A DNA stretch of 64,000 nucleotides from Paraburkholderia fungorum (GTDB taxonomy: Bacteria > Pseudomonadota > Gammaproteobacteria > Burkholderiales > Burkholderiaceae), in the NCBI RefSeq assembly GCF_900099835.1, contig NZ_FNKP01000002.1:2232001-2296000 (forward strand), in the 5' to 3' direction. Both the position numbers and the translations under genes were made by a program. The notes beneath the pieces are model-generated. The model was not told the DNA's origin. It saw nothing but the letters and a program-made list of their open reading frames with translations, and did no database searches. This document shows positions 26,439 through 62,666 of this stretch, piece after piece (the first letter of the stretch is position 1; each line of letters starts with the position of its first letter).

Positions 26439-27266
26439 CTACTGCGTCTGTTGGGCGCTAACGGTCACCGACACCTTCAGTTCCTCTTCCAACCCGCCTA
26501 TGCGTCGCCCACGCACCGGCGCAGCCGCTTCATAGTCGCGAGCGACCGCCAGACGGCAATAAATCTCGCTGGCAAACGCGGCGTGCGTGACGTCGATGGA
26601 AATCCAGCCCTTACCCTCGAGCCACACATCCACCCACGCATGGCTCGCGCCGTGAGGCGCCTCGACCGATGCCGCAGCCGGAGAAATCTCGCCCGGTTCG
26701 ATATAGCCGCTCACGTAGCGCGCCGGAATTCCGCGCGCGCGGCAGCAGGCCAGCATCAGATGCGCATGGTCCTGACACACGCCGTTGCCCAACGCCAGCG
26801 CCTGCGCGGCCGTGCTGGTGACTTCGGTAATGCCCGAGTTGTACTTCACGCGCTGCACGATCTGCTCGGACAGCGCGATCAGGCTGCTCGAACTGTCGAG
26901 AGCCGGCACCGCTTGAGCGAGTTCGCGGATCGCCGCGTCGGCCTCGGTCAGCCGCGTTGCGCAGGTGAAATGTTCGAGCGGAATCGGGCCGACCGCGTCG
27001 CGCAAAAGCCCGTCGACGAGAGGAATCGTCTCCACTTCGCCCGACACATGCAGGCGGATCTCGTTATGCGGCTTGTTGATCACCAGCGTGTGCAGCACGT
27101 TGCCGTACGCGTCGAAGGTCGCGTCGAGCTTGCCCGGCGCGTCGATGTGCCAGCGCCGCACCACCTGCGCGGCGCCGCTTGCAGGCGTCAGACGCAGTTG
27201 CTGGATCGAATAGTGAACGGTCGCTTCATAGCGATAGGAAGTGTCGTGGCGGATCGTCAGGTACAT
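26439..27266 (-). CDS. Transglutaminase-like cysteine protease (locus A)
   Basis: 275 residues from ATG 27266, with GGAG upstream. Triad C164 (NGVCQDHA), H209 (ASHAWVDV) and D225 (ISIDVTH) is intact. The N-terminal 100 residues form the beta domain of bacterial transglutaminase-like proteins. It lies 11 bases after the alpha-E gene and reads in the same direction. Domain pairs of this type are predicted to process or ligate peptides and are associated with circularly permuted ATP-grasp and alpha-E genes. Substrate unknown. Confidence 0.82.
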   Translation of the reverse strand: MYLTIRHDTSYRYEATVHYSIQQLRLTPASGAAQVVRRWHIDAPGKLDATFDAYGNVLHTLVINKPHNEIRLHVSGEVETIPLVDGLLRDAVGPIPLEHFTCATRLTEADAAIRELAQAVPALDSSSSLIALSEQIVQRVKYNSGITEVTSTAAQALALGNGVCQDHAHLMLACCRARGIPARYVSGYIEPGEISPAAASVEAPHGASHAWVDVWLEGKGWISIDVTHAAFASEIYCRLAVARDYEAAAPVRGRRIGGLEEELKVSVTVSAQQTQ

Positions 27267-27277
27267 AAAAAACTCCG

Positions 27278-28228
27278 TCAGGCGACTGGCAGCATCAGAT
27301 ACGTACGCGCCACCATATTGCCCAGCTCGAACACGCGAGCCAGGAACTGTGTCAGATAGGCGTGCAGGCCGGCTTCGAAAATCTGCCGGATGTCGGAATA
27401 CACGAGTTCGGCGCGCAGCTTGCCGGCGAAACGTTCGCACTGATTCGAGCCCGAAGTGCGCAGCATCGCCAGGTTCGCGCAGACGCCTTCAAGCGACGCA
27501 AGCAGCGAACGCGGCATCTGCTGGTTCAGGATCATCAGTTCGACCACGCGCGCGGGCGTGACCACATCGCGATACACCTTGCGATAAATTTCCAGCGCGG
27601 ACACCGAACTCAGGATCGAGGTCCAGTAATAGAAATCTTCGAGCTGACGCGCGGCGTCGCGTGAATTCGGTTCGACGTCGGCGAAACGCACGTCGAGAAT
27701 CCGCGCGGTGTTGTCGGCCCGTTCGAGGTAGGTGCCGAGCTGCGTGAAGAAGAACGCGTCGTCCTGCAACGCAGTGCCGATCGTCACGCCGCGCGACAGA
27801 TGCGAGCGGAACTTGACCCACTCGAACAGCGCGCCCGGATTACTCGCCGCCTGCCCCGACGAAATGCGCTCGTTGAATTCGAGCCACGTATCGTTGATGG
27901 TCTCCCACCATTCGGTCGTCAACGTGCCGCGCACGGCCCGGGCGTTTTCGCGCGCGGCCTGCAGACACGAATGAATGCTCGACGGGTTGGTCGAATCCGC
28001 GACCATGAAATGCAGCACGTGTTCGTGCGTCGGTTCGTCGTAGCGCTGCGCGAACGCGGTTTCGAGTTCGGAGATGCGCAGCACCGAACGTTGCGCGCGC
28101 GCTTCCTGTTCGGTCGTCTGCGGCAACAGCAGTGCCTTCAGATTGATGTCGAGCATGCGGGCGGTGTTCTCCGCGCGCTCCATGTAGCGGGCCATCCAGA
28201 AAAGATGATCGGCAGTGCGGCTTAGCAT
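27278..28228 (-). CDS. Alpha-E domain protein (locus A)
   Basis: 316 residues, all-helical. It starts LSRTADHLFWMARYMERAENTARML, the typical N-terminus of the alpha-E (DUF403) family, and has a helix-rich remainder. The family has no known catalysis; it always travels with circularly permuted ATP-grasp and transglutaminase genes and is thought to be an accessory or scaffold. The genes lie in order ATP-grasp, alpha-E, transglutaminase. Confidence 0.85.
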   Translation of the reverse strand: MLSRTADHLFWMARYMERAENTARMLDINLKALLLPQTTEQEARAQRSVLRISELETAFAQRYDEPTHEHVLHFMVADSTNPSSIHSCLQAARENARAVRGTLTTEWWETINDTWLEFNERISSGQAASNPGALFEWVKFRSHLSRGVTIGTALQDDAFFFTQLGTYLERADNTARILDVRFADVEPNSRDAARQLEDFYYWTSILSSVSALEIYRKVYRDVVTPARVVELMILNQQMPRSLLASLEGVCANLAMLRTSGSNQCERFAGKLRAELVYSDIRQIFEAGLHAYLTQFLARVFELGNMVARTYLMLPVA

Positions 28229-28421
28229 GACGGCGTTCCGTATCTGATGACGCGAGGCCTTAAGTCGAAGTAAGAAGGCTCGCGCTGGTTATCCGTGTGC
28301 GCCGGCGGCGTGCTGCATGTTGCGTGTCGCATCGTGCGAGCTACCCCGGCGCGCTGGGTTGGCGAAGCGCCAGCCTGGCCGCCCGGCTGCGGACGGCATG
28401 GCGAGCGCATCGGCAACTGCG

Positions 28422-29831
28422 TCAGTCGACCATCCACGTATCTTTGGTGCCGCCCCCCTGCGACGAATTGACGACCAGCGAGCCCTCCTGCAACGCCACG
28501 CGCGTGAGTCCTCCGGCCACCATCGTGACGGTCTTGCCGGACAGCACGAACGGCCGCAGATCGATATGGCGCGGCGCGATGCCCGCTTCGACAAACGTCG
28601 GACACGCGGACAACGCCAGCGTAGGCTGCGCGATATAACCGGCCGGACGCGCGATCAGACGTTCGCGGAACGACTCGATTTCAGCCTTCGTCGAGGCCGG
28701 CCCGACCAGCATTCCGTAGCCGCCCGCGCCGTGCACTTCCTTGACGACCAGTTCCGGCAGATGCGCGAGCGTGTACGCGAGGTCTTCAGGCTTGCGGCAC
28801 TGGAACGTGGGCACGTTATTCAGGATCGGTTTCTCACCGAGGTAAAACTCGATCATTTCCGGCACGTACGGATAGATCGATTTGTCGTCGGCGATACCGG
28901 TGCCCATTGCATTCGCGAGCGCCACGCGGCCCGCGCGATACGCAGTGAGCAGACCCGGCACGCCGAGCGCCGAGTCGGCGCGGAACGCGAGCGGGTCGAG
29001 AAAGTCATCGTCCACGCGACGGTAGATCACGTCGACGCGCTTGGGCCCCTGCGTCGTGCGCATGAACACATAGTTGTCGTCGACGAACAGGTCTTTGCCT
29101 TCCACCAGTTCCACGCCCATCTGCTGCGCGAGGAAGGTGTGCTCGAAATACGCGGAGTTGTACATGCCCGGCGTGAGCACGACGACCACCGGATCGTCGA
29201 CGCCTTCGGGCGCGACCGAACGCAACGTATCGAGCAGCAGATCGGGATAATGCGCGACCGGCGCAATGCGGTTCTGCACGAACAGCTCGGGAAAAAGCCG
29301 CATCATCATCTTGCGGTTTTCGAGCATATAGGAGACGCCCGACGGCACGCGCAGATTGTCTTCGAGCACGTAGAACTCGCCCTCGTCGCCGGCCCGCACC
29401 ACGTCGACCCCGGCAATATGCGCGTAAACACCGAGCGGCACATTCACGCCCTGCATCTCGGGCCGGTACTGCGCATTGGTATAGACCTGCTCGTCCGGAA
29501 CGATGCCCGCGCGCACGATATTGCGATCGTGATAGACGTCGTGGATGAACAGATTGAGCGCCTGCACCCGCTGGCGCAGGCCGGCTTCCAGCGTGGACCA
29601 TTCGCCGCGCGGAATGATGCGCGGAATCAGGTCGAATGGAATCAGCCGCTCGGTGCCGGACAGATCGCCGTTCACTGCGAACGTGATTCCGACCCGGCGA
29701 AACAGCAGATCGGCTTCCGCACGCTTGCGTGCGATCGCCTCGTTGCCCTGCTGGACCAACCATCGCTCGAAGCGCGAATAGTGTGGCCGCACGGCATCGT
29801 CATGATGACGCATCTCGTCATAGCATCGCAT
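28422..29831 (-). CDS. Circularly permuted ATP-grasp protein (locus A)
   Basis: 469 residues from ATG 29831 (MRCYDEMRHHDD). The core GEFYVLEDNLRVPSGVSYMLENR, then VVLTPGMYNSAYFEH and EGKDLFVDDNYVFMRT, is that of DUF404/DUF407-type circularly permuted ATP-grasp enzymes. ATP-grasp enzymes make amide or thioester bonds from carboxylates and ATP. The acceptor and donor here are unknown. A 193-base gap separates it from alpha-E. A longer start at 29879 is possible but has no better ribosome site. Confidence 0.82.
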   Translation of the reverse strand: MRCYDEMRHHDDAVRPHYSRFERWLVQQGNEAIARKRAEADLLFRRVGITFAVNGDLSGTERLIPFDLIPRIIPRGEWSTLEAGLRQRVQALNLFIHDVYHDRNIVRAGIVPDEQVYTNAQYRPEMQGVNVPLGVYAHIAGVDVVRAGDEGEFYVLEDNLRVPSGVSYMLENRKMMMRLFPELFVQNRIAPVAHYPDLLLDTLRSVAPEGVDDPVVVVLTPGMYNSAYFEHTFLAQQMGVELVEGKDLFVDDNYVFMRTTQGPKRVDVIYRRVDDDFLDPLAFRADSALGVPGLLTAYRAGRVALANAMGTGIADDKSIYPYVPEMIEFYLGEKPILNNVPTFQCRKPEDLAYTLAHLPELVVKEVHGAGGYGMLVGPASTKAEIESFRERLIARPAGYIAQPTLALSACPTFVEAGIAPRHIDLRPFVLSGKTVTMVAGGLTRVALQEGSLVVNSSQGGGTKDTWMVD

Positions 29832-30100
29832 GTCACGCCCCGCTCTTGTTGTCGGATAGAAGGCGAATGCGCTGCGCATTCGGTGTTCGACAATCGATCA
29901 AGCAAGCGCTATGCCATTGAGCTTTTAGCGTGTTGAAACACGTTGCATGCACGCTAACGGCGCATCCCGACCGGCACGGCTTCGCCGCCATCGTACTGCG
30001 GCGGATCACGATGCGCTAGTACGGTGCATACGTAGCACCGCGGTGCGCATTCGCACAACGCGCACGACGCATAAAACATGACGCTTCTGTGAACGGACAT
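29832..30100. other. Intergenic region upstream of ATP-grasp gene
   Basis: No gene seen. It separates the convergent-side end of the HU terminator from the ATP-grasp start and should hold the promoter for locus A (minus strand). No clear repeat or operator was found. Confidence 0.4.
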
Positions 30101-30135
30101 AAAAAAATCCCCGTGGATTTTCACCCACGGGGATT
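30101..30135 (-). terminator. Intrinsic terminator of the HU gene
   Basis: AATCCCCGTGG and CCCACGGGGATT pair around a short loop. On the minus strand the hairpin is followed by a run of seven T (AAAAAAA at 30101-30107 on the plus strand). It ends the HU transcript. Confidence 0.78.
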
Positions 30136-30215
30136 CAGACTACTTGCACTGCGGATCTGCTCAAACGTCAAACGCGATTGAAGAAAACTTCGAAGCGCGC
30201 CAACGGATGAAACGA

Positions 30216-30668
30216 TCAGCCTGCTGCAGCGTCTTTCAGCTTCTTCAGCGGACGTGCCTTGATGCGCACGCTAGCCGGCTTGGCCGGGAACCAGCGCTCT
30301 TCACCCGAGAACGGGTCTTTGCCGAAGCGCTTCTTCTTCGCCGGAACAGCTTGCACGACGATCTTCAGAAGACCCGACAGCGTGAATTCGCCAGCGCCCT
30401 TCTTGTGCACTGCGCCGAGGATGGTGTCTTCGAGCGCGGCCAGAACAGCCTTGGCGGTCTTCGGTTCCACAGCGGCTTTTTCAGCGACGTGAGCAGCCAG
30501 CGAGGCCTTCGTGAAGGTGTCCTTGATCGGCGACAGTGCGCTGGAAGCCTTCACGGCGACCTTCTTAGCTGCGACGGCTTTCTTCGCAGGAACTTTCTTT
30601 GCAGCAACCTTCTTGGTCGGTACCGGGGCAGCAGCCTTCTTGGCCACCTTTTTTGCGGAAGTCGGCAT
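30216..30668 (-). CDS. HU-family DNA-binding protein with Lys/Ala-rich N-terminal arm
   Basis: 150 residues from ATG 30668, with AGGAG upstream. The first 45 residues are AKK/AAKK repeats like histone H1 tails; residues about 48-145 form an HU fold ending KKRFGKDPFSGEERWF and KPASVRIKARPL, which corresponds to the HU beta-arm and C-terminus. Betaproteobacteria are known to carry HU proteins with such arms. It would bend or compact DNA. Monocistronic with its own terminator. Confidence 0.83.
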   Translation of the reverse strand: MPTSAKKVAKKAAAPVPTKKVAAKKVPAKKAVAAKKVAVKASSALSPIKDTFTKASLAAHVAEKAAVEPKTAKAVLAALEDTILGAVHKKGAGEFTLSGLLKIVVQAVPAKKKRFGKDPFSGEERWFPAKPASVRIKARPLKKLKDAAAG

Positions 30669-31173
30669 GTTTCTCCTACCTGTAGTGGTCAGTGAATTGC
30701 ACGAAGCGCATACGGTATGTGCACGCTTCAACGCCGGATTCTACAAGCGCTAATGCGATTTGCGCGACTCTTTTGTGTATCAGCGCGAAGGTTTGTTGCG
30801 CGGCGCTGACTCCGCAACACATTTTGAGCCTTGTTTTAGCGGGTAAACGTGCGTTGTGCGAGCTGGCAACACGAACACGTAACGCTCGTTACAGATCGTT
30901 TCGATGCATGAATAAAGACACTTTTCGTCTTCGGGATAGGTTCGACAGAAGTCGGAAGATCGTCAAAAGATGGCTGCTTGTCAGCTTTCGGGTGGCCGAT
31001 GAGAGACGCATGAATCGCGCTCGGGCGACTGATGTTTCAGCCGCCGTGTCGTGGCGTTTCCGTCGCGGCCCGCGCCCGCTGCATTCACAATCACGCTTCA
31101 TACAGCGGAGAAAATACGGTCGCAGCAGCGCGACGCGGGCGATCGTCGGCACCATTCTCGCATCGGCCAAACG
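30669..31173. other. Intergenic region between HU gene and MocR regulator
   Basis: 505 bases with no reliable gene; open frames here lack ribosome sites. It should contain the HU promoter and the end of the MocR transcript. Confidence 0.4.
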
Positions 31174-32652
31174 CTATTTCACGAGGCGCGGCAGAAGCCC
31201 GGCGAGCTTCGCGAGCGCCGCGTCGATATGCTCGACCGCGATGCTGCCGTAACCGAACATCAAGCCCGGCTGCGGTTTCATCTCCCGATGAAACGGCGCC
31301 AGCCCGTACAGTCCGATCGATGCCGAACGCGCCGCGTTGACGACCGCGTCCTCCATCAACGGCGCTTTCAGATACGCCGCCAGGTGAATGCCCGCAGTCG
31401 GCACGATCGGCTCGAACCATGCGGCGAGATCGCCTTGCAGATGGTCGAGCAGCGTCGCCCGGCGCGCCGCGTAGGTCTTGTGCATGCGTCGCAGGTGCTT
31501 GGCGAAGTCGCCGTTGAGCATGAACGATGCAAGCGCGGTTTGCGTCAGCGTGCAGCCGTGACAGTCGGCAATCTGGCGTGCCTTGAGCAGCGGACCGTAA
31601 AGCGACGCCGGCGGCACAACGTAACCCATCCGCAATTCCGGGAAGATGGTTTTGGAAAACGTCCCCACGTAGGCGACGAGCCCCGCGCGATCCAGGCTTT
31701 TCAGCGGCTCCATGGGCCGTCCTTCGAAGCGGTATTCGCAGTCGTAGTCGTCCTCGATAATCACCGCGCCGCGCTTTTGCGCCCATTCGAGCAGTTCGAC
31801 GCGACGCTCGAGACTCATCGGCATGCCGAGCGGAAACTGGTGCGAAGGCGTCACGTAGACGAGCCGCGCCTTGTCCGGCAGCTGGCCGACGATCAGTCCT
31901 TCGCGATCCACCGGCACCGGCACGACCCGCGCGCCGGTCGCCGTAAAACATGCATGCGCAGGCGGATAACCGGGGTCTTCGATCGCGGCGATCTCACCTG
32001 GGCGCAACGTGATACGCGCCATCAGGTCGAGCGCATGCTGAGCGCCTTGCGTGACGATGACGTCCTCCCAATTGCTCGTCACGGCCCGGTTGAACGCCAG
32101 GTAGCGCGAAATCGCGAGGCGCAACTCCTGCTCGCCCGCCACCTCGCGATACATGCCCGTACCGCGCGCCTGCGTACGCAACGCGTGATTCACACAGCGG
32201 CGCCACACGTCGAACGGAAACAGCGACTTGTCGGTTGCACCGCCCACGAAGTCTTGCGGCGACGGCACCGACGGACGCGGCAACGGGAAGCTCTCGGGCA
32301 TCTGCTCCCACAGCGGCTGCGGACGCGCGGCAGCGTCCCGCGCCTTCTTCGTGCGCTCACGCGACGACTCGGCCGCCTTCGCATGCGACGAGCGCTCCAG
32401 CGGCAAACGCTGCAAACCATCGGCAACGAAGGTGCCCGACCCGGCGCGCGTGCTCAGATAGCCTTCAGAAAGCAGGCGCTCGAAAACGTCGAGCGTGGTT
32501 TTGCGCGACACGCCCAGTTGCGTGGCGAGATCGCGCGTGGACGGCAATCGCGTGCCGCCCGCAAGACGTCCTTCGAGGATACCGGCGCGCAACTGGCGAT
32601 AAATCTGTCCGGACAGATCGTGATGCCCTTCGACAGCGATATGAATGTCCAT
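31174..32652 (-). CDS. MocR/PdxR-type transcriptional regulator (GntR-HTH plus aminotransferase domain)
   Basis: 492 residues. The first 75 residues (LSGQIYRQLRAGILEGRLAG, STRDLATQLGVSRKTT) are a GntR winged helix-turn-helix; a basic linker (about 85-110) leads to a fold-type I aminotransferase-like domain with the PLP lysine in YVGTFSKTIFPELR. MocR proteins sense PLP or amino compounds and regulate vitamin B6 or amino acid genes. It lies next to a POT transporter reading in the same direction, behind a strong terminator. Target genes cannot be assigned. Confidence 0.85.
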   Translation of the reverse strand: MDIHIAVEGHHDLSGQIYRQLRAGILEGRLAGGTRLPSTRDLATQLGVSRKTTLDVFERLLSEGYLSTRAGSGTFVADGLQRLPLERSSHAKAAESSRERTKKARDAAARPQPLWEQMPESFPLPRPSVPSPQDFVGGATDKSLFPFDVWRRCVNHALRTQARGTGMYREVAGEQELRLAISRYLAFNRAVTSNWEDVIVTQGAQHALDLMARITLRPGEIAAIEDPGYPPAHACFTATGARVVPVPVDREGLIVGQLPDKARLVYVTPSHQFPLGMPMSLERRVELLEWAQKRGAVIIEDDYDCEYRFEGRPMEPLKSLDRAGLVAYVGTFSKTIFPELRMGYVVPPASLYGPLLKARQIADCHGCTLTQTALASFMLNGDFAKHLRRMHKTYAARRATLLDHLQGDLAAWFEPIVPTAGIHLAAYLKAPLMEDAVVNAARSASIGLYGLAPFHREMKPQPGLMFGYGSIAVEHIDAALAKLAGLLPRLVK

Positions 32653-32845
32653 GCGAGTGGCTACCTCGACGATCGGGAAAGGAGTTTTTCTGATGACCAG
32701 ATTGAAGGCGTTAGCTTAACGCCGGTCGATGCCGTCCGGCGGACTTTTACGATCTGCGCTATTCCCATGCGGAAGTACGCGTGAAAAGCGATGTCGTTCA
32801 CGAATCGATGCAGACGTATAGACAAAAGTCCGGCCGCCAGAATGC

Positions 32846-32888
32846 AAAATGGCGCGCCTCAAATGAAGAGGCGCGCCATTTTTTTAAG
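32846..32888. terminator. Strong bidirectional terminator between transporter and regulator
   Basis: AAATGGCGCGCCTC and GAGGCGCGCCATTT pair perfectly (14 bp) around AAATGAA, with T-runs on both sides. It separates the POT transporter and MocR genes. Confidence 0.8.
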
Positions 32889-32904
32889 CCGACTATCTGT
32901 CGAG

Positions 32905-34446: not shown

Positions 34447-35375
34447 CGTGTACCTCTAGTTCAAACGGTTACGGCGTCGCACGGTCTGGCCGCGCGGCGC
34501 GAAATACGGGATCTGGAAAAACAGTCGGCGAAGATTGCGCCGTTCGGCTGGCAAGTCGGCGCTGTCCGGCACGTCGTCATCGACGCAACGGTCACGCGCT
34601 AATTCGCCAAGGCCAGCGGAAAAACCAGAAGATGGGGTATGGAGGCCCGCCTCGCGGCAAGCTGCGCCGGATTGGACTCAGGCGCGGGTTCAAGCTCGGC
34701 CTCAGGCTCCGGCCAGCGGAGCGGGCTCAATGATAAAGCATCGCGGAAAACCGGGCTCCGGCGAGGGCTTTGGCGGGCTGTACGCCCGCGCGGGGAAGTG
34801 TCGGCAGTAATGATCGTGTCCTTACGCCCGGCACCGTTCGGATGGAACGTGCCGGACAACGCTCCGCCCCGCAGGATCGCTGCGGGCGGAATGATAAACA
34901 GCGGTCGGATAGCCGTGCGATTCGACAGGCAATTTTGCCTCCGCTTTGCTCGCCGGCATCGTTCCGCAAACGGCGCCAATTCTGCAAATAAGACCCCGCT
35001 GACGTCACTCAGGGAATCCACTGATTTGGAGTTCATTACTTGTCGTTTCATTCGCACACGTAGCCGAAGCGTGGGCTTGCCTTTGAAAAAATCTCTTTTG
35101 CATCAATCCGTTAGGCCGATTTATATTCACGCCTCTTAAATCGGACTTACACGGCGGATACTCCCGCTTTTACCGAATGCCCTTACGACGACCTGAAAGC
35201 CGCCGGTCAATTCGTCTGATGCGAGTTTCAATTCTGGCAACATAAGCGTATTGCTTCAAAATAATGCGTTGTTTGCATCACCGGAGCCAGCCGGCCGACC
35301 GGCTCAAAACCGTCACCGTATCAAAACATATTTACCTTTACCAAACAAATTTTGACGGGCTCACTTCCACTCGCT
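34447..35375. other. 929-base intergenic region
   Basis: No reliable gene. It separates the divergent POT transporter (-) and XRE-cupin regulator (+) genes and should hold both promoters. An imperfect hairpin CCGCCCCGCAG/CTGCGGGCGG (34864-34889) is present. Long frames here lack coding character. AT content rises near 35240-35375, next to the regulator start. Confidence 0.4.
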
Positions 35376-35948: not shown

Positions 35949-36004
35949 CGGGCAGTTGAAAACCGCTGGGCACGTTCCACGCGTTCAGCGGATAACCGCG
36001 CCGT

Positions 36005-36304
36005 TCAGAAGATCACCGACAGCGCCACCGCGAGCCAGAGCGCTATCACGCCCGACAGAAACAGATGTCGCGCAATGCGAACGCGCGAATCGCTGGTTTC
36101 CGGCTCGACCGGACTCGTGGCCATCCAGGGCACGAGTCCGAGACAGGCGAAGCCGATCAGCGCAAACACGAAAACGAAAATGTCGATGACGCGCCAGCGT
36201 GTCGGCTCATACATGCCCCAGTAGCCGAGAAACACGATACCAATCGAGAAGATGGTTGCCGACGCCCCACTGAGTGCGGGCACGGATCCGGCTGGACTCG
36301 GCAT
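36005..36304 (-). CDS. Small membrane protein
   Basis: 99 residues with three hydrophobic segments (about 17-32, 40-60 and 83-99). No known family. It lies between the XRE-cupin regulator and the ketopantoate reductase gene, on the same strand as the latter and 98 bases after it. Confidence 0.6.
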   Translation of the reverse strand: MPSPAGSVPALSGASATIFSIGIVFLGYWGMYEPTRWRVIDIFVFVFALIGFACLGLVPWMATSPVEPETSDSRVRIARHLFLSGVIALWLAVALSVIF

Positions 36305-36402
36305 GCTTCACCTCCGGTGATTAAGCTGTGACAAGCTTCCTTCTCCGCTTTGCTCGTGCTTTCCTCGTGCTTCCGTCATGCTTCCCGCGCTACCTCACCC
36401 GC

Positions 36403-51404: not shown

Positions 51405-51420
51405 GAAAAGCAGTGTATGT

Positions 51421-53695: not shown

Positions 53696-53718
53696 GTCCG
53701 CATCGGCCTACTCGAAAT

Positions 53719-53757
53719 GAAAACGGCTCGTCGGGATAAACCGGCGAGCCGTTTTTT
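53719..53757. terminator. Bidirectional terminator between converging genes
   Basis: AAACGGCTCG(T)CGG and CCGGCGAGCCGTTT pair around ATAAA, with an A-run before and T-run after. It ends both the DUF2957-type gene and the transglutaminase gene. Confidence 0.82.
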
Positions 53758-53771
53758 CATTCACGCCAAAC

Positions 53772-54668
53772 TCAAAGCGCGAGTACCGTCACCCCTACTT
53801 CCACGCGATGCGCGCCGCCGCCGAGAATCATCCCGCGCAATAGAGACACGTCGCTGTAATCGCGGCCGATGGCGAGCGTCACATGATCGAGGTCGGCGAG
53901 CACGTCGTTGGTCGGATCGAGATCGATCCAGCCGCTGCCGGGACAATACACCGAGACCCACGCATGCGACGCGTCCGCACCAATCAGGCGTGGCTGCCCC
54001 GGCGGCGGATCGTTACGCAGATAACCGCTCACGTAACGCGCGGGCAACCCTAGCGAACGCAGACAGCCGATCATCACCTGCGCGAAATCCTGACACACGC
54101 CGCTCTTCAATTCGAAAGCGCGCTCGGCCGGCGTATCGAACATCGTGGCCGACGGCTTATACGCGAAGTCTTCGTGAATGCGATGCATCAGATCGATCGC
54201 GCCCGCCGCCACCGGCTGGCCGGGCGGAAAACTCGGCAACGCATAGTCGCGCAGCGACGCACGCAGCGCGATATTCGGCGACGCGAAACAGAACTCGACC
54301 TCCGCCCGAAACTGACCGCCGACACGAAACCGCAATGCGTCGGCCACTTCGTCCCAGGCGGGCGTCGCGTCGGGATCGAGATCGGTCCAGCGCGGCGTGA
54401 GCGCCACCGTCGTTTCGCTGACGAGTTGCAGGCGCTCGTGCGGCGTATCGAGTGCGAAGTACAGCACGTCGTTGCCGAATGCATCGATACGGCTATTCAG
54501 ATACGACGGCTCCGGCTCGATCCGCTCGTCGTGCGAGACGACACGCTGCCACGAACACGCAATCGGACGGATCGTCGCGAGATGCTGCGCGGTCTCGACA
54601 TACGTGGAATAACGATAAGTAGTGCGGTGCGAAACCGACAGGACGACGGGTGCGTTTTTCATGACCAT
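53772..54668 (-). CDS. Transglutaminase-like protein (locus B, third gene)
   Basis: 298 residues from ATG 54668 (or 296 from ATG 54662). Triad C192 (SGVCQDF), H235 (ASHAWVSV) and D251 (DLDPTND). The gene start overlaps the previous stop (54659) by several bases, so it is translated with the ATP-grasp/alpha-E gene. It is the same family as the locus A protein. Peptide cleavage or ligation is predicted from the family context. Confidence 0.83.
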   Translation of the reverse strand: MVMKNAPVVLSVSHRTTYRYSTYVETAQHLATIRPIACSWQRVVSHDERIEPEPSYLNSRIDAFGNDVLYFALDTPHERLQLVSETTVALTPRWTDLDPDATPAWDEVADALRFRVGGQFRAEVEFCFASPNIALRASLRDYALPSFPPGQPVAAGAIDLMHRIHEDFAYKPSATMFDTPAERAFELKSGVCQDFAQVMIGCLRSLGLPARYVSGYLRNDPPPGQPRLIGADASHAWVSVYCPGSGWIDLDPTNDVLADLDHVTLAIGRDYSDVSLLRGMILGGGAHRVEVGVTVLAL

Positions 54669-57337
54669 ACCTGTGACGCCACCGTGCTCGCGTGACTGAA
54701 ATAGCGCGCGCTGATTTCATGCGCGGCCGCGCCGACGAAGCCGCCGATCAGATCGCACACGCCGGTCAGACGCTCGTACGAACCGTTTTCGTCGACGCTG
54801 CACAGCGATTCGAGCGACGGCAACGACGAAGCCGGCGGCATCAATTCCGCAAACGGGCGATGCCGCGTGCTGCCCGCCGCCACGGCGATCTCATCGAGCT
54901 TCTTGCGCAAACGGTCGTACACACCGTAGATGCCGCGCGGATTGGTCGGCTCGATCACCAGCAGGTCGAGCAACGCCGGCACTTCGAAACGGCCCGGATA
55001 CAGCGAGCGATACGTCAGCGTGCTGTCGAACAATTGCAGCAGCAGGTCGAAACCGGCGGGCGTCGCGAGCTGACCTTTGTCGGCGATGACGCGCAGAAAC
55101 GATGCCATCGACGAAACGCGCTCGATGTGACGTCCGACGAACAGCAAACGCCATGCTTCGTCGCGTGTCATGCGGTCGCCCTGCGCGCCGCTGATCGCCG
55201 ATAGCTGCACCGACAGGTGTTCGAGCGCATTCACCAGCGTGACGCGGTCGTAGCGGTCGTGACGCTCGCCGCGGCCATTGCTCTGCGATTGAGATTGGGA
55301 TTGAGACTGCGCCTGCGCTTGCGACAAACCACCGCCGTTCAACCCGGCAGCCACCGGCATCAACGTCTGCAACGCATCGCGAAAATCGTTACGCGCGGCG
55401 AGAATCGTGCGCCAGTGATCGTTCGACAGCCGCCCGCGCACTTCGCCGTTCGAGCGTGCCTGACAATTCAGGTTCTGGCCGATGCTGGCCATCCCCGCGC
55501 TTTCGCTCAGATTCGCGATCAGCGCGCGTTCGAAGTGTTGGGGCGAATGCGGTGAAAACAGGTCGCCGGATTGCACCAGCCCGCACTGCATTGCAAGTTC
55601 GACCAGGGTCGGGAACATCGCGTCGGCGTCGTTGCCTTCCAGCGAGCCGAGAATCAGCCGCAGCAGGCGCACGTTGTTTTCCGCGCGTTCGCCATAACGT
55701 CCGGCCCAGAACAGATTTTCCGCCGCGCGGCTCGACACGGTGCGATGCTTGCGCGCGAGGTCGGCGGGTTGCATCGGCGAAGGCAGCAGCGTGAAGGTCG
55801 AAGTCGGCTGGCTCGACAGCACCCATGTATCGACGCTGCTGCCGCCGTACTGCATCGATACCGTGGTCTGCCGCTCGGCGGCCATCCGCGTGAAGCCGCC
55901 TGGCATCACATGCCAGCCGCCGTTGGCGTCGGCGATTGCATAGACGCGCAGCACACTCGGACGACGCCCAATAGTGCCCTCTTCGTAACGCGGCGTGCAC
56001 GAAAAGCGCTGCGGCTGCTGGATGGTGAACGTATCGGGCAGCGCTTCGATCCGCTCTCGCCATGCGTCCAGCTTCTGCCGGCCCTGCTCGATGCCCGGCG
56101 GTGCATCGCGCCCGCTGACCGGCCATGTCGGCACGATGAACGCCTCGTCCAGCCGCGCGAACGCGTGCTCGCGCGCCGCCGTTTCGCCGCACCACCAGGT
56201 CGCGACGCTCGGCAATACGAGGTCTTCGCCAAGCAGCGTTTCGGCGATGCCGGGCAAAAACCCATGCAACGCGGGCGACTCGACAAAACCCGACCCCGGC
56301 ACGTTCGATACGATCACGTTACCCGCGCGCATCACCTGCAACAAACCGGGCACGCCGATGCTCGAATCGGCGCGCAATTCGACCGGATCGCAGAACGCGT
56401 CGTCAAGACGGCGCAGCACCACATGCACGCGCTCCAACCCCGCCAGCGTCTTCAGATACAGCTTGTCGTCGCGCACGGTCAGGTCCTTGCCTTCGACCAG
56501 CGTGACGCCCAGATAGCGCGCCAGAAACACGTGCTCGAAATACGTTTCGCTATACGGCCCTGGCGTGAGCAACGCGATATGCGGCGACGTATCGGCGCGG
56601 CTGCCCTCGGCGCTGTCGTCGTGCCGCATCGTGGCCTGGGCCGCCTGCGCGAGCGTCGCGATCAGTTGCGAATAGGTTGGCGCGAGACGGCTCACGCGCA
56701 TCGAACGGAACGGATCGGCGAACAGCGACGACACGATGAGCCGGTTTTCCAGCGCATAACCGAGACCGGACGGCGCTTCGGTGCGATGCTGCATCACCGT
56801 CCAGTCGCCGCCGGGCGTACGCGCGAGATCGACCGCGACGACCTGCAGATACTGGCCGCCCGGCGGCGTATAACCTTTCACCGGGCGCAGATAGCCGGGA
56901 TGCCCGAACACCAGCGCGGGTGGCAACTGCCCGCGTTCGAGCAGGGTCTGCGGCCCGTAAATATCGGCGACGATTGCATTGAGCAGATGCGCGCGCTGCA
57001 TCACGCCCTGCTCGATATGCGCCCACTCGTCCTCGCTGATCAGGAACGGCAGCAGGTCGAGCGCCCATGGACGCGACTCGCCGTTATCCGCGTAGACGTT
57101 GTAGCTGATGTCGTTATCGCGGATCTGCTGCGCGACCGACGCGACGTGATCCTCCAGCCGCGCCACGCCATCTTCGCCGAGCCGCTCGAAGAACTGACGC
57201 CACGGTTCGCGCAGTGCGCCCGTGGCGTCGCGCAACTCGTCCCAATGTCCCTCGTAGCCCGGCAACAGGCGTAACAGGGACGAAGCGTCCGCGTGGGCCG
57301 CGGACGTTTCGAAGGGAAAAGTCGATTGAAAAGCCAA
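54659..57337 (-). CDS. Circularly permuted ATP-grasp fused to alpha-E (locus B, second gene)
   Basis: 892 residues. The N-terminal half (1-520) is the ATP-grasp part with DNDISYNVYADNGESRPW, GLGYALENRLIVSS and LTPGPYSETYFEH; the C-terminal 350 residues from SSRAAENLFWAGRYGERAENNVR form the alpha-E part. In locus A these are separate genes. A (Gln-Ser) low-complexity stretch (about residues 670-685) lies within the alpha-E region. The fusion supports a physical complex between the two domains. Substrate unknown. Confidence 0.86.
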   Translation of the reverse strand: MAFQSTFPFETSAAHADASSLLRLLPGYEGHWDELRDATGALREPWRQFFERLGEDGVARLEDHVASVAQQIRDNDISYNVYADNGESRPWALDLLPFLISEDEWAHIEQGVMQRAHLLNAIVADIYGPQTLLERGQLPPALVFGHPGYLRPVKGYTPPGGQYLQVVAVDLARTPGGDWTVMQHRTEAPSGLGYALENRLIVSSLFADPFRSMRVSRLAPTYSQLIATLAQAAQATMRHDDSAEGSRADTSPHIALLTPGPYSETYFEHVFLARYLGVTLVEGKDLTVRDDKLYLKTLAGLERVHVVLRRLDDAFCDPVELRADSSIGVPGLLQVMRAGNVIVSNVPGSGFVESPALHGFLPGIAETLLGEDLVLPSVATWWCGETAAREHAFARLDEAFIVPTWPVSGRDAPPGIEQGRQKLDAWRERIEALPDTFTIQQPQRFSCTPRYEEGTIGRRPSVLRVYAIADANGGWHVMPGGFTRMAAERQTTVSMQYGGSSVDTWVLSSQPTSTFTLLPSPMQPADLARKHRTVSSRAAENLFWAGRYGERAENNVRLLRLILGSLEGNDADAMFPTLVELAMQCGLVQSGDLFSPHSPQHFERALIANLSESAGMASIGQNLNCQARSNGEVRGRLSNDHWRTILAARNDFRDALQTLMPVAAGLNGGGLSQAQAQSQSQSQSQSNGRGERHDRYDRVTLVNALEHLSVQLSAISGAQGDRMTRDEAWRLLFVGRHIERVSSMASFLRVIADKGQLATPAGFDLLLQLFDSTLTYRSLYPGRFEVPALLDLLVIEPTNPRGIYGVYDRLRKKLDEIAVAAGSTRHRPFAELMPPASSLPSLESLCSVDENGSYERLTGVCDLIGGFVGAAAHEISARYFSHASTVASQVWS

Positions 57338-57366
57338 GATGGTGTCGTTTTAAGAGTGGTTGGATT

Positions 57367-60300
57367 TCACCAGTAGCGCAGATCGAGCGTGAACGGAAAC
57401 TCGAGACTGCGATGCGGCGCATCGGCCCTGAGCGGTCCCGGCGTATGACCCGACGCAAAGAAACGCGAGCGCCGCCGGCTTTCCGCCTCGTAGGCGTTCA
57501 CCGGGAAGGTCTCGTAGTTGCGCCCGCCCGGATGAGCGACATGATACTGGCAACCGCCCACCGAGCGGCCAGTCCAATTGTCAACCAGGTCGAAGGTGAG
57601 CGGCGCGTCGACCCCGATCGTCGGATGCAGCGCCGAAGGCTGCGCCCACGCCCTGAAGCGCACGCCCGCCACATACTCGCTGACGCGGCCGGTCGGCTGC
57701 AACGGCACCGGCACACCGTTCACCGTCAGCACATGACGGTTCCCGTTCAGCCCGAGCGCGTGTACTTCGAGCCGCTCCACCGACGAATCCACATAGCGCA
57801 CCGTGCCGCCCGGCGAGCCCTCTTCGCCCATCACATGCCAGGGTTCGAGCGCATTGCGGATCGTCAGCGACACGCCGTTCACCGTGGTCTCGCCGACCAG
57901 CGGAAAGCGGAATTCGAAGTGCGGCGCGAACCAGCTGCTGTCGAACGCGAAACCGGCGCGGTTCAGTTCACCGATCACATCGTCGAAATCCATCTTGACG
58001 AAGGTGCCGAGCAGGAAGCGGTCGTGCAGCTCGGTGCCCCAGCGCGTGAGCCGCTGCGTGTACGGTGTGTGCCAGAAACGCGCCACCAGCGCGCGCAGCA
58101 GCAGTTGCTGGACGAGGCTCATGCGCGCGTGCGGCGGCATTTCAAAACCGCGCAATTCGAGCAGGCCGAGGCGGCCGGTCGGGCCGTCGGGCGAATACAG
58201 CTTGTCGATGCAGAATTCGGCGCGGTGCGTGTTGCCGGTCACGTCGATCAGGATGTTGCGCAGCGAGCGGTCGATCATCCACGAAGGCAGGTTCGCGCTG
58301 TCGCGTCCGCCGAGCAGGTCGATCTGGCGCTGCAATTCGCGGAACGCGACTTCGAGTTCATACACCTGGTCGTTGCGTGCTTCGTCGACGCGCGGCGCCT
58401 GGCTGGTCGGCCCGATAAACAGCCCCGAAAACAGATACGACAGCGACGGATGGTTGTGCCAGTAAGCAATCAAACTCGCGAGCAGATCGGGGCGTCGCAG
58501 GAACGGACTGTCCGCGGGCGTCGCGCCGCCGAGCACGAAGTGGTTGCCGCCGCCGGTGCCGGTGTGCCGGCCGTCGGTCATGAACTTTTCGCTGCTCAGA
58601 TAGGTTTCGGACGCCGACTGGTACAGATACTCCGTGTGATCGACCAGCTGCTCCCAGTTCGCGGCCGGATGAATGTTCACCTCGATCACGCCCGGGTCCG
58701 GCGTCACCTGCAGCACTTTCAGACGCGCATCGCGCGGCGGCGGATAGCCTTCGAGCACGACCTGCATCTTCAGATCGGCGGCTGTGGCTTCGATCGCGGC
58801 GAGCAGGTCGAGGTAATCGTCGAGTTCGGTCAGCGGCGGCATGAACACGTGCAGCAGCGTGCGACCGCTGCCGAAGGTCTTCTCCTCGGCCTTCGGACCG
58901 GCTGCGCGCTTCGGATCGCGCGCCTCGACGCAAATGGCCGTGCGCAACGTTTCCTTCGACGACACGCCGCGCGCCGGCGGCTGTTCGCCCGGCTGACGGG
59001 CATAAGCCAGCACGCTGCTGCCGGGCATCCCGCTCAGCAGATCCCCCGCGGACAACGACAACGCGGCGGCCCGGCGCGCGTTTTCCGTAGTGAGCGCGGG
59101 GCGCTGACCGGCGGCTTCGGTGCCGTCGTATTGCAGACGCAACTGTGAGGCGGCGCGCAACGGCACCGGCGGCGCGAACGGATCGTGCGCGTGCTGATAC
59201 GGATAATCGGTCTTCGACACCCACGGCAGCGAGTCGAGCGGCAGGCGGTAGCCCATCGGCGAATCGCCGGGAATCAGGTACATGCGTTCGTCGCGGAAAA
59301 ACCAGCGGCCGCTCACCCACTTCGGCGCTTCGCCCGGGATATCGCGCTCGCGTCCGAGCGGCAGCACATAGCCGGTCACGCCGCTCAAACCCGCATCGAA
59401 CACGCGACGCAGGCGCAGGCGCTCCAGTTCGTCGTCGAGTTTGGTGTCGAACGGATCGACGTTGACCGGCAGACGGCGCTCGCGCCACAGGTAGTACCAG
59501 GTGTCCTCGTAGCCGGGCTGGATGGTGTCCGTTTCGAGCGACAGCTTGCCTGCCAGATGCGCGAGGAAACGCTGCGCGTCGGCGGCGGTGTAGCGGCCCG
59601 GCTCGCGTTCGTCGGCGAACAGCGACGGGTCGTGCCAGCACGGCTCGCCGTCCGCGCGCCAGTAAAGCGACATCGCCCAGCGCGGCAATTGCTCGCCCGG
59701 ATACCACTTGCCCTGGCCGATATGCAGGAAGCCGTTCGCGCCGTAGCGCGCGCGCAGCTTTTCCATCAGCGCGACCGCGTAGCCGCGCTTGGTCGGCCCG
59801 AGCGCGTCGGTGTTCCATTCGGCGGCGTCGCGGTCGCGCACCGACACGAAGGTCGGCTCGCCGCCCATCGTCAGGCGCACGTCCATATTGGCGAGTTGCC
59901 GGTCGACCTCGGCGCCCATCTTCAGCACGTCGCCCCACACTTCTTCCGTGTACGGCCTGGTGACGCGGGGCGTTTCCAGCACCCGCTCGATCGACATCTC
60001 GTGGCTGAATTCGACCTCGGACTCATCGACCGCGCCCGAAATCGGCGCCGCGCTGCCCGGCTCCGGCGTACACGCGACCGGAATATGCCCTTCGCCCGCC
60101 AGCAGCCCCGAGGTCGGATCGAAACCGATCCAGCCCGCGCCCGGCAGATACACCTCGCACCACGCGTGCAGGTCGGTGAAGTCGACTTCGGTGCCGCTCG
60201 GGCCGTCGATCGATTTGACGTCGGGCGCAAGTTGCAGCAGGTAACCGGACACGAAACGCGCGGCCAGTCCCAGTTGCCGCAACGTCTCGACCAGCAGCCA

Positions 60301-60852
60301 GCCCGAGTCGCGGCACGAACCCGCCGCGCTCACCAGCGTTTCCTCCGGCGTCTGCACGCCAGGCTCCATTCGGATCAGATAGCGGATTTCACGTTGCAGC
60401 CGCTGGTTCAGCGCGACGAGGAAGTCGGCGGTCACGGTCGGCGTCAGGTCGATACTCGCGACGAACTCGGCGAAACGCGGCGTCATCGGACGCTTGATGC
60501 GGTACGGCGCCAGTTCGACGGCGAGCCCTTCCGAATACTCGAACGGGAACTGCTCGGCCGACGGCTCCAGGAAGAAGTCGAACGGGTTGTAGACCGCCAT
60601 CTCGGCGATCAGGTCGACGGTGATCTTGAACTCGCGCGTCTTCTCGGGAAAGACCAATCGCGCCTGATAGTTGGCGAATGCGTCCTGTTGCCAGTTGATA
60701 AAGTGTTCGGCCGGTTCGACTCGCAGCGAATACGAGAGGATCGGAGTACGGCAATGCGGCGCAGGCCTGAGACGCACGACCTGGGGCGACAGCGCGACCA
60801 GCCTGTCGTAGCGGTAATGTGTGACGTGATGCAACGCGACGCGTATGGACAC
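57367..60852 (-). CDS. Large transglutaminase-DUF2126 protein (locus B, first gene)
   Basis: 1161 residues from GTG 60852, preceded by AGGAG. The N-terminal 270 residues contain the transglutaminase triad C180 (GSCRDS), H229 (DLHAWCEV) and D245 (GFDPTSG); the remaining 900 residues form a DUF2126-type region (WGDVLKMGAEVDRQLANMD..., then GGGNHFVLGG and NHPSLSYLFSG). A longer start at 60894 would lack a ribosome site. It is the first gene of a three-gene operon that includes the ATP-grasp/alpha-E fusion 29 bases after it. Confidence 0.85.
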   Translation of the reverse strand: MSIRVALHHVTHYRYDRLVALSPQVVRLRPAPHCRTPILSYSLRVEPAEHFINWQQDAFANYQARLVFPEKTREFKITVDLIAEMAVYNPFDFFLEPSAEQFPFEYSEGLAVELAPYRIKRPMTPRFAEFVASIDLTPTVTADFLVALNQRLQREIRYLIRMEPGVQTPEETLVSAAGSCRDSGWLLVETLRQLGLAARFVSGYLLQLAPDVKSIDGPSGTEVDFTDLHAWCEVYLPGAGWIGFDPTSGLLAGEGHIPVACTPEPGSAAPISGAVDESEVEFSHEMSIERVLETPRVTRPYTEEVWGDVLKMGAEVDRQLANMDVRLTMGGEPTFVSVRDRDAAEWNTDALGPTKRGYAVALMEKLRARYGANGFLHIGQGKWYPGEQLPRWAMSLYWRADGEPCWHDPSLFADEREPGRYTAADAQRFLAHLAGKLSLETDTIQPGYEDTWYYLWRERRLPVNVDPFDTKLDDELERLRLRRVFDAGLSGVTGYVLPLGRERDIPGEAPKWVSGRWFFRDERMYLIPGDSPMGYRLPLDSLPWVSKTDYPYQHAHDPFAPPVPLRAASQLRLQYDGTEAAGQRPALTTENARRAAALSLSAGDLLSGMPGSSVLAYARQPGEQPPARGVSSKETLRTAICVEARDPKRAAGPKAEEKTFGSGRTLLHVFMPPLTELDDYLDLLAAIEATAADLKMQVVLEGYPPPRDARLKVLQVTPDPGVIEVNIHPAANWEQLVDHTEYLYQSASETYLSSEKFMTDGRHTGTGGGNHFVLGGATPADSPFLRRPDLLASLIAYWHNHPSLSYLFSGLFIGPTSQAPRVDEARNDQVYELEVAFRELQRQIDLLGGRDSANLPSWMIDRSLRNILIDVTGNTHRAEFCIDKLYSPDGPTGRLGLLELRGFEMPPHARMSLVQQLLLRALVARFWHTPYTQRLTRWGTELHDRFLLGTFVKMDFDDVIGELNRAGFAFDSSWFAPHFEFRFPLVGETTVNGVSLTIRNALEPWHVMGEEGSPGGTVRYVDSSVERLEVHALGLNGNRHVLTVNGVPVPLQPTGRVSEYVAGVRFRAWAQPSALHPTIGVDAPLTFDLVDNWTGRSVGGCQYHVAHPGGRNYETFPVNAYEAESRRRSRFFASGHTPGPLRADAPHRSLEFPFTLDLRYW

Positions 60853-61280
60853 ACCGGACTCCTGGATGAAGGATGGCAGCCCGCCAAAAAGCAAGCTTCA
60901 TGCCGTTGATCGAAAACCGCGTGAACTGTGATGAACTGTCGTACCGCTTCTAGCTTGCCTTATCTGCCCGGATCACCGCCTGTTGCGAAGTGTGCCGCAT
61001 GCCATGCGCGCCCGGTCGGACGATTAACGCAGCTTTTCCCCGCCTTTTGCGCCACTGCGGCGACACTGATGCAAGACCGCCGCGAGCCCGCCTCGGGACT
61101 TCTGCAAGACCGCCGCCGCGCCACGCACCAAAGCGGCGCAGCGCCCGTGCACGATCATGCACGTAATGTGCGTTAAACGAGTGACGGATGGCAAACGCGG
61201 CATGAAGATTGCGGCCTCATCGGCTCGTTCACGTTATTCATCCCACTTACGACTGCCACCCATCACCCCGGGCCCGATCG
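60853..61280. repeat. Intergenic region with 14-bp direct repeat, between divergent locus B genes
   Basis: TGCAAGACCGCCGC occurs at 61070-61083 and 61103-61116, 33 bases apart. The region separates the large transglutaminase gene (-) and metallopeptidase gene (+) and should hold both promoters. No gene is seen. Confidence 0.5.
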
Positions 61281-62666
61281 ATGAAAACTTTCCACTGCAA
61301 TCATTGCTCGCACCTCGTTTTCTACGAAAACGTCCGCTGCGAACGCTGTGAGTCATTGCTCGGCTATGTGCCTGAATGCGAGGAAATCAGCGCCTTCGAA
61401 GATGCCGGCGAAGGCCGCTGGCGCAGCCTGCATCCAGCCGCCGAGGGCGCGCTGTTCCGCCAGTGCCACAACTACGCGGTCGAGAACGTCTGCAACTGGA
61501 TGATTCCCGCCGATTCGCCCGACACATTGTGCCGTGCGTGCCAGTTGACCCGCACGATTCCGAACCTGAGCGCGCCGGATAACCGGCTCTATTGGTATCG
61601 GCTGGAAATGGCAAAGCGGCGCCTGCTTTACACGCTCGCGGAACTCGGTCTCGATGTGAAATCGCGTCAGGCGGACCCGGAGCACGGCCTCGCGTTCGAG
61701 TTTCTCGAAGACGGCGGCGACGGCGCGCACGTGATGACCGGTCACGACAACGGGCTGATCACGCTGAACATCGCCGAGGCCGACGACGCTTACCGCGAAA
61801 AGGTGCGCACCGCGATGGGCGAACCGTATCGCACGCTGCTCGGCCATTTTCGTCATGAGACAGGGCACTACTATTTCAGCCAGCTGGTGGAGAACAATCC
61901 GCGCTGGCTCGAACCGTACCGCAAGCTGTTCGGCGACGAAAGCGCCGACTATGGCGAGGCGCTGAACGCGTACTACCGCGACGGCGCGCCGGCCGACTGG
62001 CAGGCGTCGTATATCAGCGCGTATGCGACGATGCATCCGTGGGAAGACTGGGCGGAGACGTGGGCGCACTACATGCTGATCGTCGACGTGCTGGATACGT
62101 CTACTTCTTACGGCGTCGCCCTGCTGCCGGACGATCCGAGCGAGCCGACGCTGACGGACCGTACGCCGGTCGAAGACGCGAGCTTCGAGAATCTGATGAA
62201 GCGCTGGTTTCCGCTCACTTATGCATTGAACAGCCTGAACCGCAGTCTCGGCATGGCGGACGGATATCCGTTCACGCTGGCGGTTCCGGTGGTGGAAAAG
62301 CTGCGTTTCGTGCATCGCGTGATTGCGGGTGCGGGGGACAAGTCGCAGCCAAGGGAAGCGGCGACGCCTGCGGGTGAGGTGGCGCAGGGGAAGGTTCAGC
62401 TCGACGCTGCGGCTGCGGTTGCGCCGGTTGCGGTCGCGGCGCCGAACGCAGGGCAAGCAGATGCTCAATCCGGCGCACAGGCTGTCGTGCCGCCATCGCC
62501 ACCACCGGCGCCCGCGCCCGCAACCAATTCAGCGCCGGTCGCTCCTGTTCAGCCTCCGGTTGACCCAGCTGCACCGGTCGCGCCATCGGCATCGGAGCAA
62601 ACCGGCGCACAACCCCAAACGACACCGCCCGCCACCGGCGAAGCTCCTGTGCCGCAGAGTCAATGA
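61281..62666 (+). CDS. Zinc-ribbon metallopeptidase-like protein of locus B
   Basis: 461 residues from ATG 61281. N-terminal zinc ribbon C6-x2-C9 and C20-x2-C23, a second Cys set C62, C71, C84, C87, and HExxH (H192, E193, H196) in RHETGHYYF, the metallopeptidase signature. The C-terminal 100 residues are Ala/Pro-rich. Proteins of this type (zinc-binding peptidase group, PF10005-type) travel with transglutaminase/ATP-grasp loci. It could process the product or remove a tag. No signal peptide is visible, so a cytoplasmic role is likely. Confidence 0.78.
   Translation: MKTFHCNHCSHLVFYENVRCERCESLLGYVPECEEISAFEDAGEGRWRSLHPAAEGALFRQCHNYAVENVCNWMIPADSPDTLCRACQLTRTIPNLSAPDNRLYWYRLEMAKRRLLYTLAELGLDVKSRQADPEHGLAFEFLEDGGDGAHVMTGHDNGLITLNIAEADDAYREKVRTAMGEPYRTLLGHFRHETGHYYFSQLVENNPRWLEPYRKLFGDESADYGEALNAYYRDGAPADWQASYISAYATMHPWEDWAETWAHYMLIVDVLDTSTSYGVALLPDDPSEPTLTDRTPVEDASFENLMKRWFPLTYALNSLNRSLGMADGYPFTLAVPVVEKLRFVHRVIAGAGDKSQPREAATPAGEVAQGKVQLDAAAAVAPVAVAAPNAGQADAQSGAQAVVPPSPPPAPAPATNSAPVAPVQPPVDPAAPVAPSASEQTGAQPQTTPPATGEAPVPQSQ

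Follow-up and report, generated by a model that had tools for sequence, protein, structure and literature searches.

Two ATP-grasp/alpha-E/transglutaminase loci of Paraburkholderia fungorum as probable parts of one nitrogen-limitation pathway, with anbu cut off from its operon by a prophage

A 64,000-nucleotide stretch of the Paraburkholderia fungorum genome (assembly GCF_900099835.1, contig NZ_FNKP01000002.1, positions 2,232,001 to 2,296,000; hereafter the window) holds two loci, 25 kb apart, that combine circularly permuted (CP) ATP-grasp, alpha-E, and transglutaminase-like (TG) proteins. Locus A carries the three families as separate genes; locus B carries a fused ATP-grasp/alpha-E gene, a second transglutaminase (TG-B), a transglutaminase fused to DUF2126 (TG-DUF2126), and a divergent zinc-ribbon metallopeptidase (Peptidase_Mx). 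We consider it probable, though some way from certain, that A and B are co-regulated parts of one pathway of amide ligation and hydrolysis that acts under nitrogen limitation, and that in this genome one of its members, the proteasome relative anbu, has been cut off by a prophage; of the chemistry that such a pathway would perform we are much less sure. This reading is drawn from the co-occurrence of the fused gene with separate alpha-E genes, from single clusters of all these genes in other organisms, and from sigma-54-type elements at both loci. The gene families and the Anbu operon were known already; new, as far as our searches reach, is the view of the A-type and B genes as one sigma-54-controlled set.

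Published Anbu operons consist of genes for ATP-grasp, alpha-E, transglutaminase, and Anbu (PMC6376114, PMC5666114). The window's genome (8.58 Mb) has the first three in operon order at locus A, but anbu is not directly downstream. The proteasome family finds two genes in this genome: the stronger match, on another contig, is probably HslV, and the weaker lies 64 kb from locus A. The product of this weaker-scoring gene aligns with solved Anbu chains starting at their residue 1 (best E 4.2e-98) and, read by eye, carries Thr1, Asp17, and Lys32, the residues named for Anbu (PMC6376114). In two relatives, G187 and G213 (G, L, and C numbers are our labels for genomes, loci, and contigs), anbu and the end of the locus-A transglutaminase (TG-A) are direct neighbours on the chromosome. 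Anbu is present in 68 of 77 genomes of the genus, and in 63 of them a separate alpha-E gene is found no more than 2.5 kb from it, the five exceptions being the window's genome, G174, G154, G198, and G173; at the order level it is near a separate alpha-E gene in 54 of 76 Anbu genomes. As read from these comparisons, locus A is the Anbu operon of the genus, of four genes with the fourth cut off, and not a three-gene system. The original prediction, which was made from the window alone, had described three separate genes; these are real and complete, but they form the front part of a longer operon whose anbu it had missed.

That anbu stands 64 kb away is explained by a prophage in its codons 1-6. 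We are sure, from the sequence evidence, that the 63.7-kb element in question is a prophage that integrated there site-specifically, because the site is empty in G187 and G213, a core sequence is repeated at the two ends, an integrase adjoins anbu, and phage genes lie between. The element measures 63,725 bases between the two copies of the 17-base core, of which no other copy, allowing up to 3 mismatches, was found in the 109 kb examined; its G+C content is 57.1%, against 61.5% in the window beyond it. The integrase is a tyrosine integrase with an arm-binding domain. Twenty prophage open reading frames (ORFs) were scanned against PHROGs, and matches include the integrase, a CI-like repressor, a replication initiation protein, a DnaB-like helicase, NinG, NinI, and an exonuclease, together with small and large terminase, major head protein, tail sheath, baseplate proteins, and an esterase. 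Tape-measure and tail-fibre proteins were matched more weakly, one ORF had no match, and others matched only families of unknown function. Ordinary rearrangement could be proposed as the cause of the distance instead, and G198 and G173, which have anbu without the other three genes, do look like loss rather than phage; set against the empty site, the paired cores, and the integrase and structural genes, however, it has hardly any chance of being right, and for this genome it is refuted unless the assembly is wrong.

The two junctions indicate how the insertion left the gene. The locus-A copy of the core agrees exactly with the first 17 bases of the G187 anbu gene, and the remnant there encodes Met-Thr-Tyr-Cys-Val-Gly and then a stop, behind the native anbu leader. 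On the anbu side the half core rebuilds the same six residues ahead of the real gene, and Anbu therefore keeps its presumed catalytic Thr1. Because the two positions at which the cores differ from the G187 anbu start, both silent, stand on the anbu side, we infer that the present start codon and Thr1 codon are phage-derived. In this arrangement anbu is parted from its own leader as well as from the promoter of the operon; sigma-70 scans of both anbu leaders found no promoter.

A related, interrupted integrase occupies the same place beside anbu in P. dilworthii (G174). Named genomes yielded 37 related integrases, of which the P. dilworthii one alone adjoins anbu in the flanking sequence fetched (contig ends truncate some of these flanks), and among 8 genomes of the genus with an integrase match only the window's genome and G174 show this position. 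The integrase of Burkholderia phage BcepC6B is 59.8% identical to the one beside anbu, but no sequence resembling the anbu start was found in 6.2 kb around it. No report of a prophage at anbu was found in the open-licence literature searched, and within that literature its presence in the first anbu codons is new. It is conceivable, though we think it improbable, that the prophage acts as a genetic switch of a nitrogen-starvation pathway, its integrase having specialised on the catalytic threonine codons of anbu, which it would rebuild from its own attachment site while placing the peptidase under phage control. Lysogens would then run the ligase half without the peptidase half until excision restored the operon.

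Locus B was followed through the genus, through 150 genomes drawn evenly from the order, and through 200 drawn from the phylum, the last two samples having some genomes in common; fused and separate genes were distinguished by bit score and open-frame length. The order sample contains 81 genomes with separate alpha-E, 50 with DUF2126, 26 with the fused gene, and 76 with Anbu. All 26 with the fused gene have both DUF2126 and separate alpha-E, all those with DUF2126 have separate alpha-E, and a single genome has Anbu but no separate alpha-E. Secondary DUF2126 pieces in G137, G051, G090, G046, G126, and G114 and one alpha-E fragment in G051 were left out of these figures, as were, in the genus, partial DUF2126 matches in G153 (two pieces), G208 (one of two), and G157. 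The fused gene occurs in at least 59 genomes of the genus and at least 37 of the phylum sample; separate alpha-E accompanies it in all 59 genus genomes in which it was listed and in 36 of the 37 from the phylum. The co-occurrence of these families, stated in the original prediction, is borne out. Its further proposal, that A and B are two independent systems with different substrates, agrees with the 30 of 150 order-level genomes that have separate alpha-E and Anbu and neither fused gene nor DUF2126, but not with the presence of separate alpha-E in all order-level genomes with the fused gene.

The fused gene keeps close to DUF2126, within 4 kb in 23 of the 26 order-level genomes and within 3 kb in 57 of the 59 listed genus genomes; in the order-level exceptions the two are on different contigs (G060, G125) or 10 kb apart on one contig (G103). 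In the genus, Anbu-linked alpha-E and DUF2126 are on one contig in 41 of 63 genomes, a count that takes in G000 and G154, with displaced anbu, by hand. Their median distance is 32 kb, 39 of the 41 pairs are less than 100 kb apart, and all 50 pairs of separate alpha-E and DUF2126 within 100 kb are on the same strand. Gene order in relatives bears out that A and B are conserved together; within the genus the relation is one of conserved position, not adjacency.

Outside the genus the same parts are shuffled in the 20 loci compared. In six of these, ATP-grasp, alpha-E, Anbu, and TG-DUF2126 follow one another, with no fused gene, and in others the run consists of A-type genes, TG-DUF2126, the fused gene, and TG-B; one (L172) is a single cluster of everything, TG-A and Anbu included. 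The record of Burkholderia cenocepacia shows one run of ATP-grasp, alpha-E, a partial TG match, TG-DUF2126, the fused gene, and TG-B, and a plasmid of Enterobacter roggenkampii carries ATP-grasp, alpha-E, TG-DUF2126, the fused gene, and TG with ends that touch or overlap at three of the four joints. Such contiguity argues against two independent systems. So do the sigma-54-type elements at both window loci, and the peptidase, which the original prediction called dedicated to B, does not follow B outside the genus. Among loci chosen for holding DUF2126, it is beside B in 18 of 20 of the genus (from 19 genomes) and in none of 20 from other genera; the order sample has it in 12 of 150 genomes, 7 of which have DUF2126, and adjacent only in the window's genome. 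Its position beside B characterises this genus.

A tree of 70 ATP-grasp domains gathers the 36 fused ones, without exception, into a single group (support 100/100) and places the locus-A ATP-grasp among seven Anbu-linked ones. The unity of the fused group argues that B, far from being a recent copy of A, is an old paralogue: on this evidence it is a module with DUF2126, seen almost only where separate alpha-E exists. The alpha-E proteins of A and B are only 27% identical. This divergence and the separation of the two ATP-grasp groups would suit two systems, as would the addition to B of DUF2126 and, in most loci of the genus, the peptidase; weighed with the linkage described above, we regard that explanation as possible and unlikely. 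The same divergence and old split, and the usual proximity of the fused gene to DUF2126, make it quite improbable that A and B are redundant and the fused gene a backup copy, even though ATP-grasp, alpha-E, and transglutaminase domains are present in both.

We return to the single pathway and its regulation. Matches to the sigma-54 -24/-12 pattern were scored out of 12 positions, general consensus patterns being used for sigma-54 and NtrC. Upstream of locus A an element (ATGGCATAGCGCTTGCT) scores at least 10/12 in all 21 loci compared (the window and 20 others), one locus of another genus being a full match. Upstream of locus B an element (ACGGCATRRAGCTTGCT) is found in 16 of 21 genus loci, nearly unchanged despite diverged flanks. 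Among the fetched B-region loci, an element of at least 10/12 lies within 300 bases of 14 of 26 ATP-grasp genes, compared with 2.6% of random stretches, and in the B. cenocepacia record an 11/12 element stands 81 bases upstream of the cluster. Three of the window's 6 NtrC-like palindromes are in the two upstream regions of A and B, a placement noticed after the fact.

Published expression data point the same way. B. cenocepacia H111 genes I35_5080-5083 (BCAM1233-1236), annotated as DUF404/407, DUF403, transglutaminase-like, and large transglutaminase-like, are common targets of NtrC and sigma-54 (PMC5491218); we equate them by annotation with the cluster analysed above, which is from another strain. 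In Pseudomonas putida, PP_2685-2688 have been called likely NtrB/NtrC-controlled (PMC7801951), some of them rise under nitrogen limitation, PP_2685 (Anbu) being among the risers (PMC3325844), and PP_2685 and its neighbours are up when nitrate is the nitrogen source (PMC8050072). Urea-use domains are tracked by DUF403, DUF404, and DUF407 across marine metagenomes (PMC3597751). From the elements and these parallels we are fairly sure that A and B share their regulation. HvyA, a transglutaminase homologue and capsulation protein that figures in a Caulobacter NtrC paper, was also considered; the available part of that paper does not show a link to these loci (PMC10274813).

The pathway can be sketched as follows. 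NtrC and sigma-54 would switch on both A and B when nitrogen is short. The CP-ATP-grasp, helped by alpha-E, would use ATP to activate a carboxylate and couple this to an amine, which might belong to a peptide, a polyamine, or a protein tag; the fusion of ATP-grasp and alpha-E in one gene argues for contact between the two, and the ATP-grasp of the Yersinia Anbu operon releases phosphate from ATP (PMC6376114). DUF2126 may serve as a second ligase, a role suggested by its Pfam name. Enzymes of the transglutaminase fold would transfer or hydrolyse the same kind of bond, and Anbu, here with the zinc peptidase, would degrade the products. In the lysogen, expression of anbu should be uncoupled from that of the rest of the operon.

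Several observations weigh against this reading. The exceptional phylum genome, a 74%-complete assembly, has the fused gene without a listed separate alpha-E. The locus-A leader around the sigma-54-type element is itself conserved, 5 of 21 genus loci have no such element at locus B, and neither do 12 of the 26 ATP-grasp genes in the fetched B-region loci. Over the whole window, both strands, 9 sites score 10/12; with up to two mismatches allowed, there are 11 sigma-54 matches where 16 are expected and 6 NtrC-like palindromes where 4.1 are expected, no excess in either case. The B. cenocepacia ATP-grasp is on another branch of the tree than the window's Anbu-linked one, and among the rows of PMC5491218 available the regulated set includes neither the fused gene nor TG-B. 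In the table of PMC7801951, PP_2685 has values of 1.12, 4.81, and 1.45, little change in two of three columns, while its neighbours are up 11- to 37-fold, and the DNA just ahead of PP_2685 has been cloned as a candidate for a separate promoter of that gene (PMC8050072). The available text on Yersinia reports no specific complex of the operon proteins with Anbu and no peptidase activity of Anbu (PMC6376114), and our searches found no known substrate or product of these genes. A DUF2126 profile built from 18 sequences, used to look for likeness to glutamine synthetase or glutamate-cysteine ligase, had no significant match among PDB sequences of solved structures (best E 0.12, to another family), and a structure predicted from 1 sequence was unusable (mean predicted local distance difference test score, pLDDT, 34).

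The closest known systems are the Anbu operons of Pseudomonas, Yersinia, and others, which share the four families and, in P. putida, the response to nitrogen limitation according to the papers above; the window's genome differs in the prophage within the first anbu codons and in the second, fused module with DUF2126. The B. cenocepacia cluster has the same annotated families under sigma-54 and NtrC, but it is contiguous, its ATP-grasp is of a different branch, and the peptidase was unmatched in the 21 kb fetched around it; because of the branch, its A-type/B linkage is only an analogy for the window. Mycobacterial Rv2566-Rv2569c and Rv2409c-Rv2411c we take to comprise the same families, with a zinc peptidase beside the fused gene. 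Glutathionylspermidine synthetase/amidase pairs a circularly permuted ATP-grasp ligase with a cysteine amidase, and the proposed pathway would resemble it in logic, but the window's ATP-grasps match PF14403 and PF04174, with the GspS family absent among their Pfam matches (E 0.001), although PDB 3n6x, matched by the locus-A protein, bears the name putative glutathionylspermidine synthase.

The role of the ATP-grasp, alpha-E, transglutaminase, and Anbu genes is left open in PMC6376114 and PMC5666114, as far as those papers were available, and the comparison made here supplies a condition, nitrogen limitation. It also suggests that the A-type and B genes together are the unit of study, and it offers natural variants in the lysogen with anbu parted from its operon and in the genomes that keep anbu without the other three genes there. 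The phage attachment site lies on the catalytic N-terminus of a proteasome relative.

Features of the window are collected in Table 1. All seven ORFs named in the original prediction are present with the domains given there, as judged by Pfam matches; an NCBIfam search gave no name for any of the seven proteins. TG-A starts at ATG 27266, 11 bases past the alpha-E gene, TG-B overlaps the fused gene by 10 bases, and TG-DUF2126 starts with GTG 60852. The likely start of Peptidase_Mx is ATG 61281 rather than the ORF start at 61209. Cys-His-Asp residues of the transglutaminases, presumed catalytic from the known fold, were compared with the best-matching transglutaminase of each relative: C164/H209/D225 of TG-A and C192/H235/D251 of TG-B are invariant in 55 and 34 loci, some best matches in both cases being of another transglutaminase class, and C180/H229/D245 of TG-DUF2126 (numbered from its GTG) in 40. 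The HETGH motif (HExxH) of the peptidase is kept in 18 loci. The claim that these active sites are intact was thus correct. An alpha-E profile had no credible match among PDB sequences (best E 0.007, over only 42 profile positions), and structure prediction from 2 sequences gave a mean pLDDT of 44. In viral contigs no DUF2126 or Anbu relative was confirmed at the sensitivity of the search used.

Table 1. Loci A and B, the prophage end, and candidate regulatory elements in the window
Feature	Position	Strand	Basis or remark
Prophage, part within window	1..26259		Rest left of window; parts anbu from locus A
Attachment core ATGACTTACTGTGTCGG	26260..26276	-	anbu start codon and codons 2-6, then TAG (remnant ORF 26257-26276)
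Native anbu leader element CATTACAAT	26305..26319	-	Left on locus-A side; TACAAT at same place in 14 of 20 relatives with leader printed
Locus A gene 3, TG-A	26439..27266	-	PF01841, PF08379; triad
Locus A gene 2, alpha-E	27278..28228	-	PF04168 E 8.6e-95
Locus A gene 1, CP-ATP-grasp, amidoligase type	28422..29831	-	PF14403 E 2.4e-167, PF04174; PDB 3n6x_A E 1.9e-219; in Anbu-linked group of tree
Sigma-54-type -24/-12 element ATGGCATAGCGCTTGCT	29901..29917	-	Upstream of locus A; sole window match with at most 1 mismatch
NtrC-like palindrome	29948..29964	-	2 mismatches; upstream of locus A
NtrC-like palindrome	30012..30028	-	2 mismatches; in conserved block of locus A leader
Locus B gene 3, TG-B	53772..54668	-	PF08379, PF01841
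Locus B gene 2, fused CP-ATP-grasp/alpha-E	54659..57337	-	PF14403 E 9.4e-137, PF04168 E 1.2e-50
Locus B gene 1, TG-DUF2126	57367..60852	-	PF09899 E 0, PF08379, PF01841
Sigma-54-type element ACGGCATGAAGCTTGCT	60890..60906	-	Upstream of locus B; 16/21 genus loci, flanks diverged
NtrC-like palindrome	61124..61140	+	2 mismatches; between locus B and peptidase
Peptidase_Mx, divergent zinc-ribbon metallopeptidase	61209..62666 (ORF)	+	PF15887 E 3e-107, PF10005; HETGH

Some genomes show further variations of these loci. In G198 and G173 (L176, L177) the flanks are the same and anbu is in its usual place, but the genes for ATP-grasp, alpha-E, and transglutaminase are absent from the interval, which looks like gene loss, not phage. 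In G154 (L174-L175) a gap of about 29 kb lies between TG-A and anbu, and next to anbu is a 27-residue integrase-like remnant, possibly the trace of an old insertion at the same site; since tblastx gives nothing in the interval similar to the window's prophage and only this remnant is present, it is not counted as a proven second insertion. Two Anbu genes per cluster are found in G115 and G131 (L165, L173), perhaps the two Anbu subtypes mentioned in the available part of PMC5666114, and G028 (L154) has four alpha-E genes, three of which share a contig with DUF2126 and Anbu. The E. roggenkampii cluster (L181) is on the 90-kb plasmid p1_120063, near an IS6 transposase and arsC. A further transglutaminase-like gene of the window's genome (L012:7289-8350, + strand, contig C1) stands beside chaperone, usher, and spore-coat-U genes and is unlinked to A or B.

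The prophage carries two additional genes of note. A reverse transcriptase (L011:14576-15928, - strand; PF00078) has PADLOC model RT as its best match (E 1.7e-33), followed by RT_UG4 (E 6.3e-22), and resembles in sequence those of phage-defence systems. An acyltransferase (window positions 17805-18869, - strand; PF01757) is perhaps a surface-modifying gene of lysogenic conversion.

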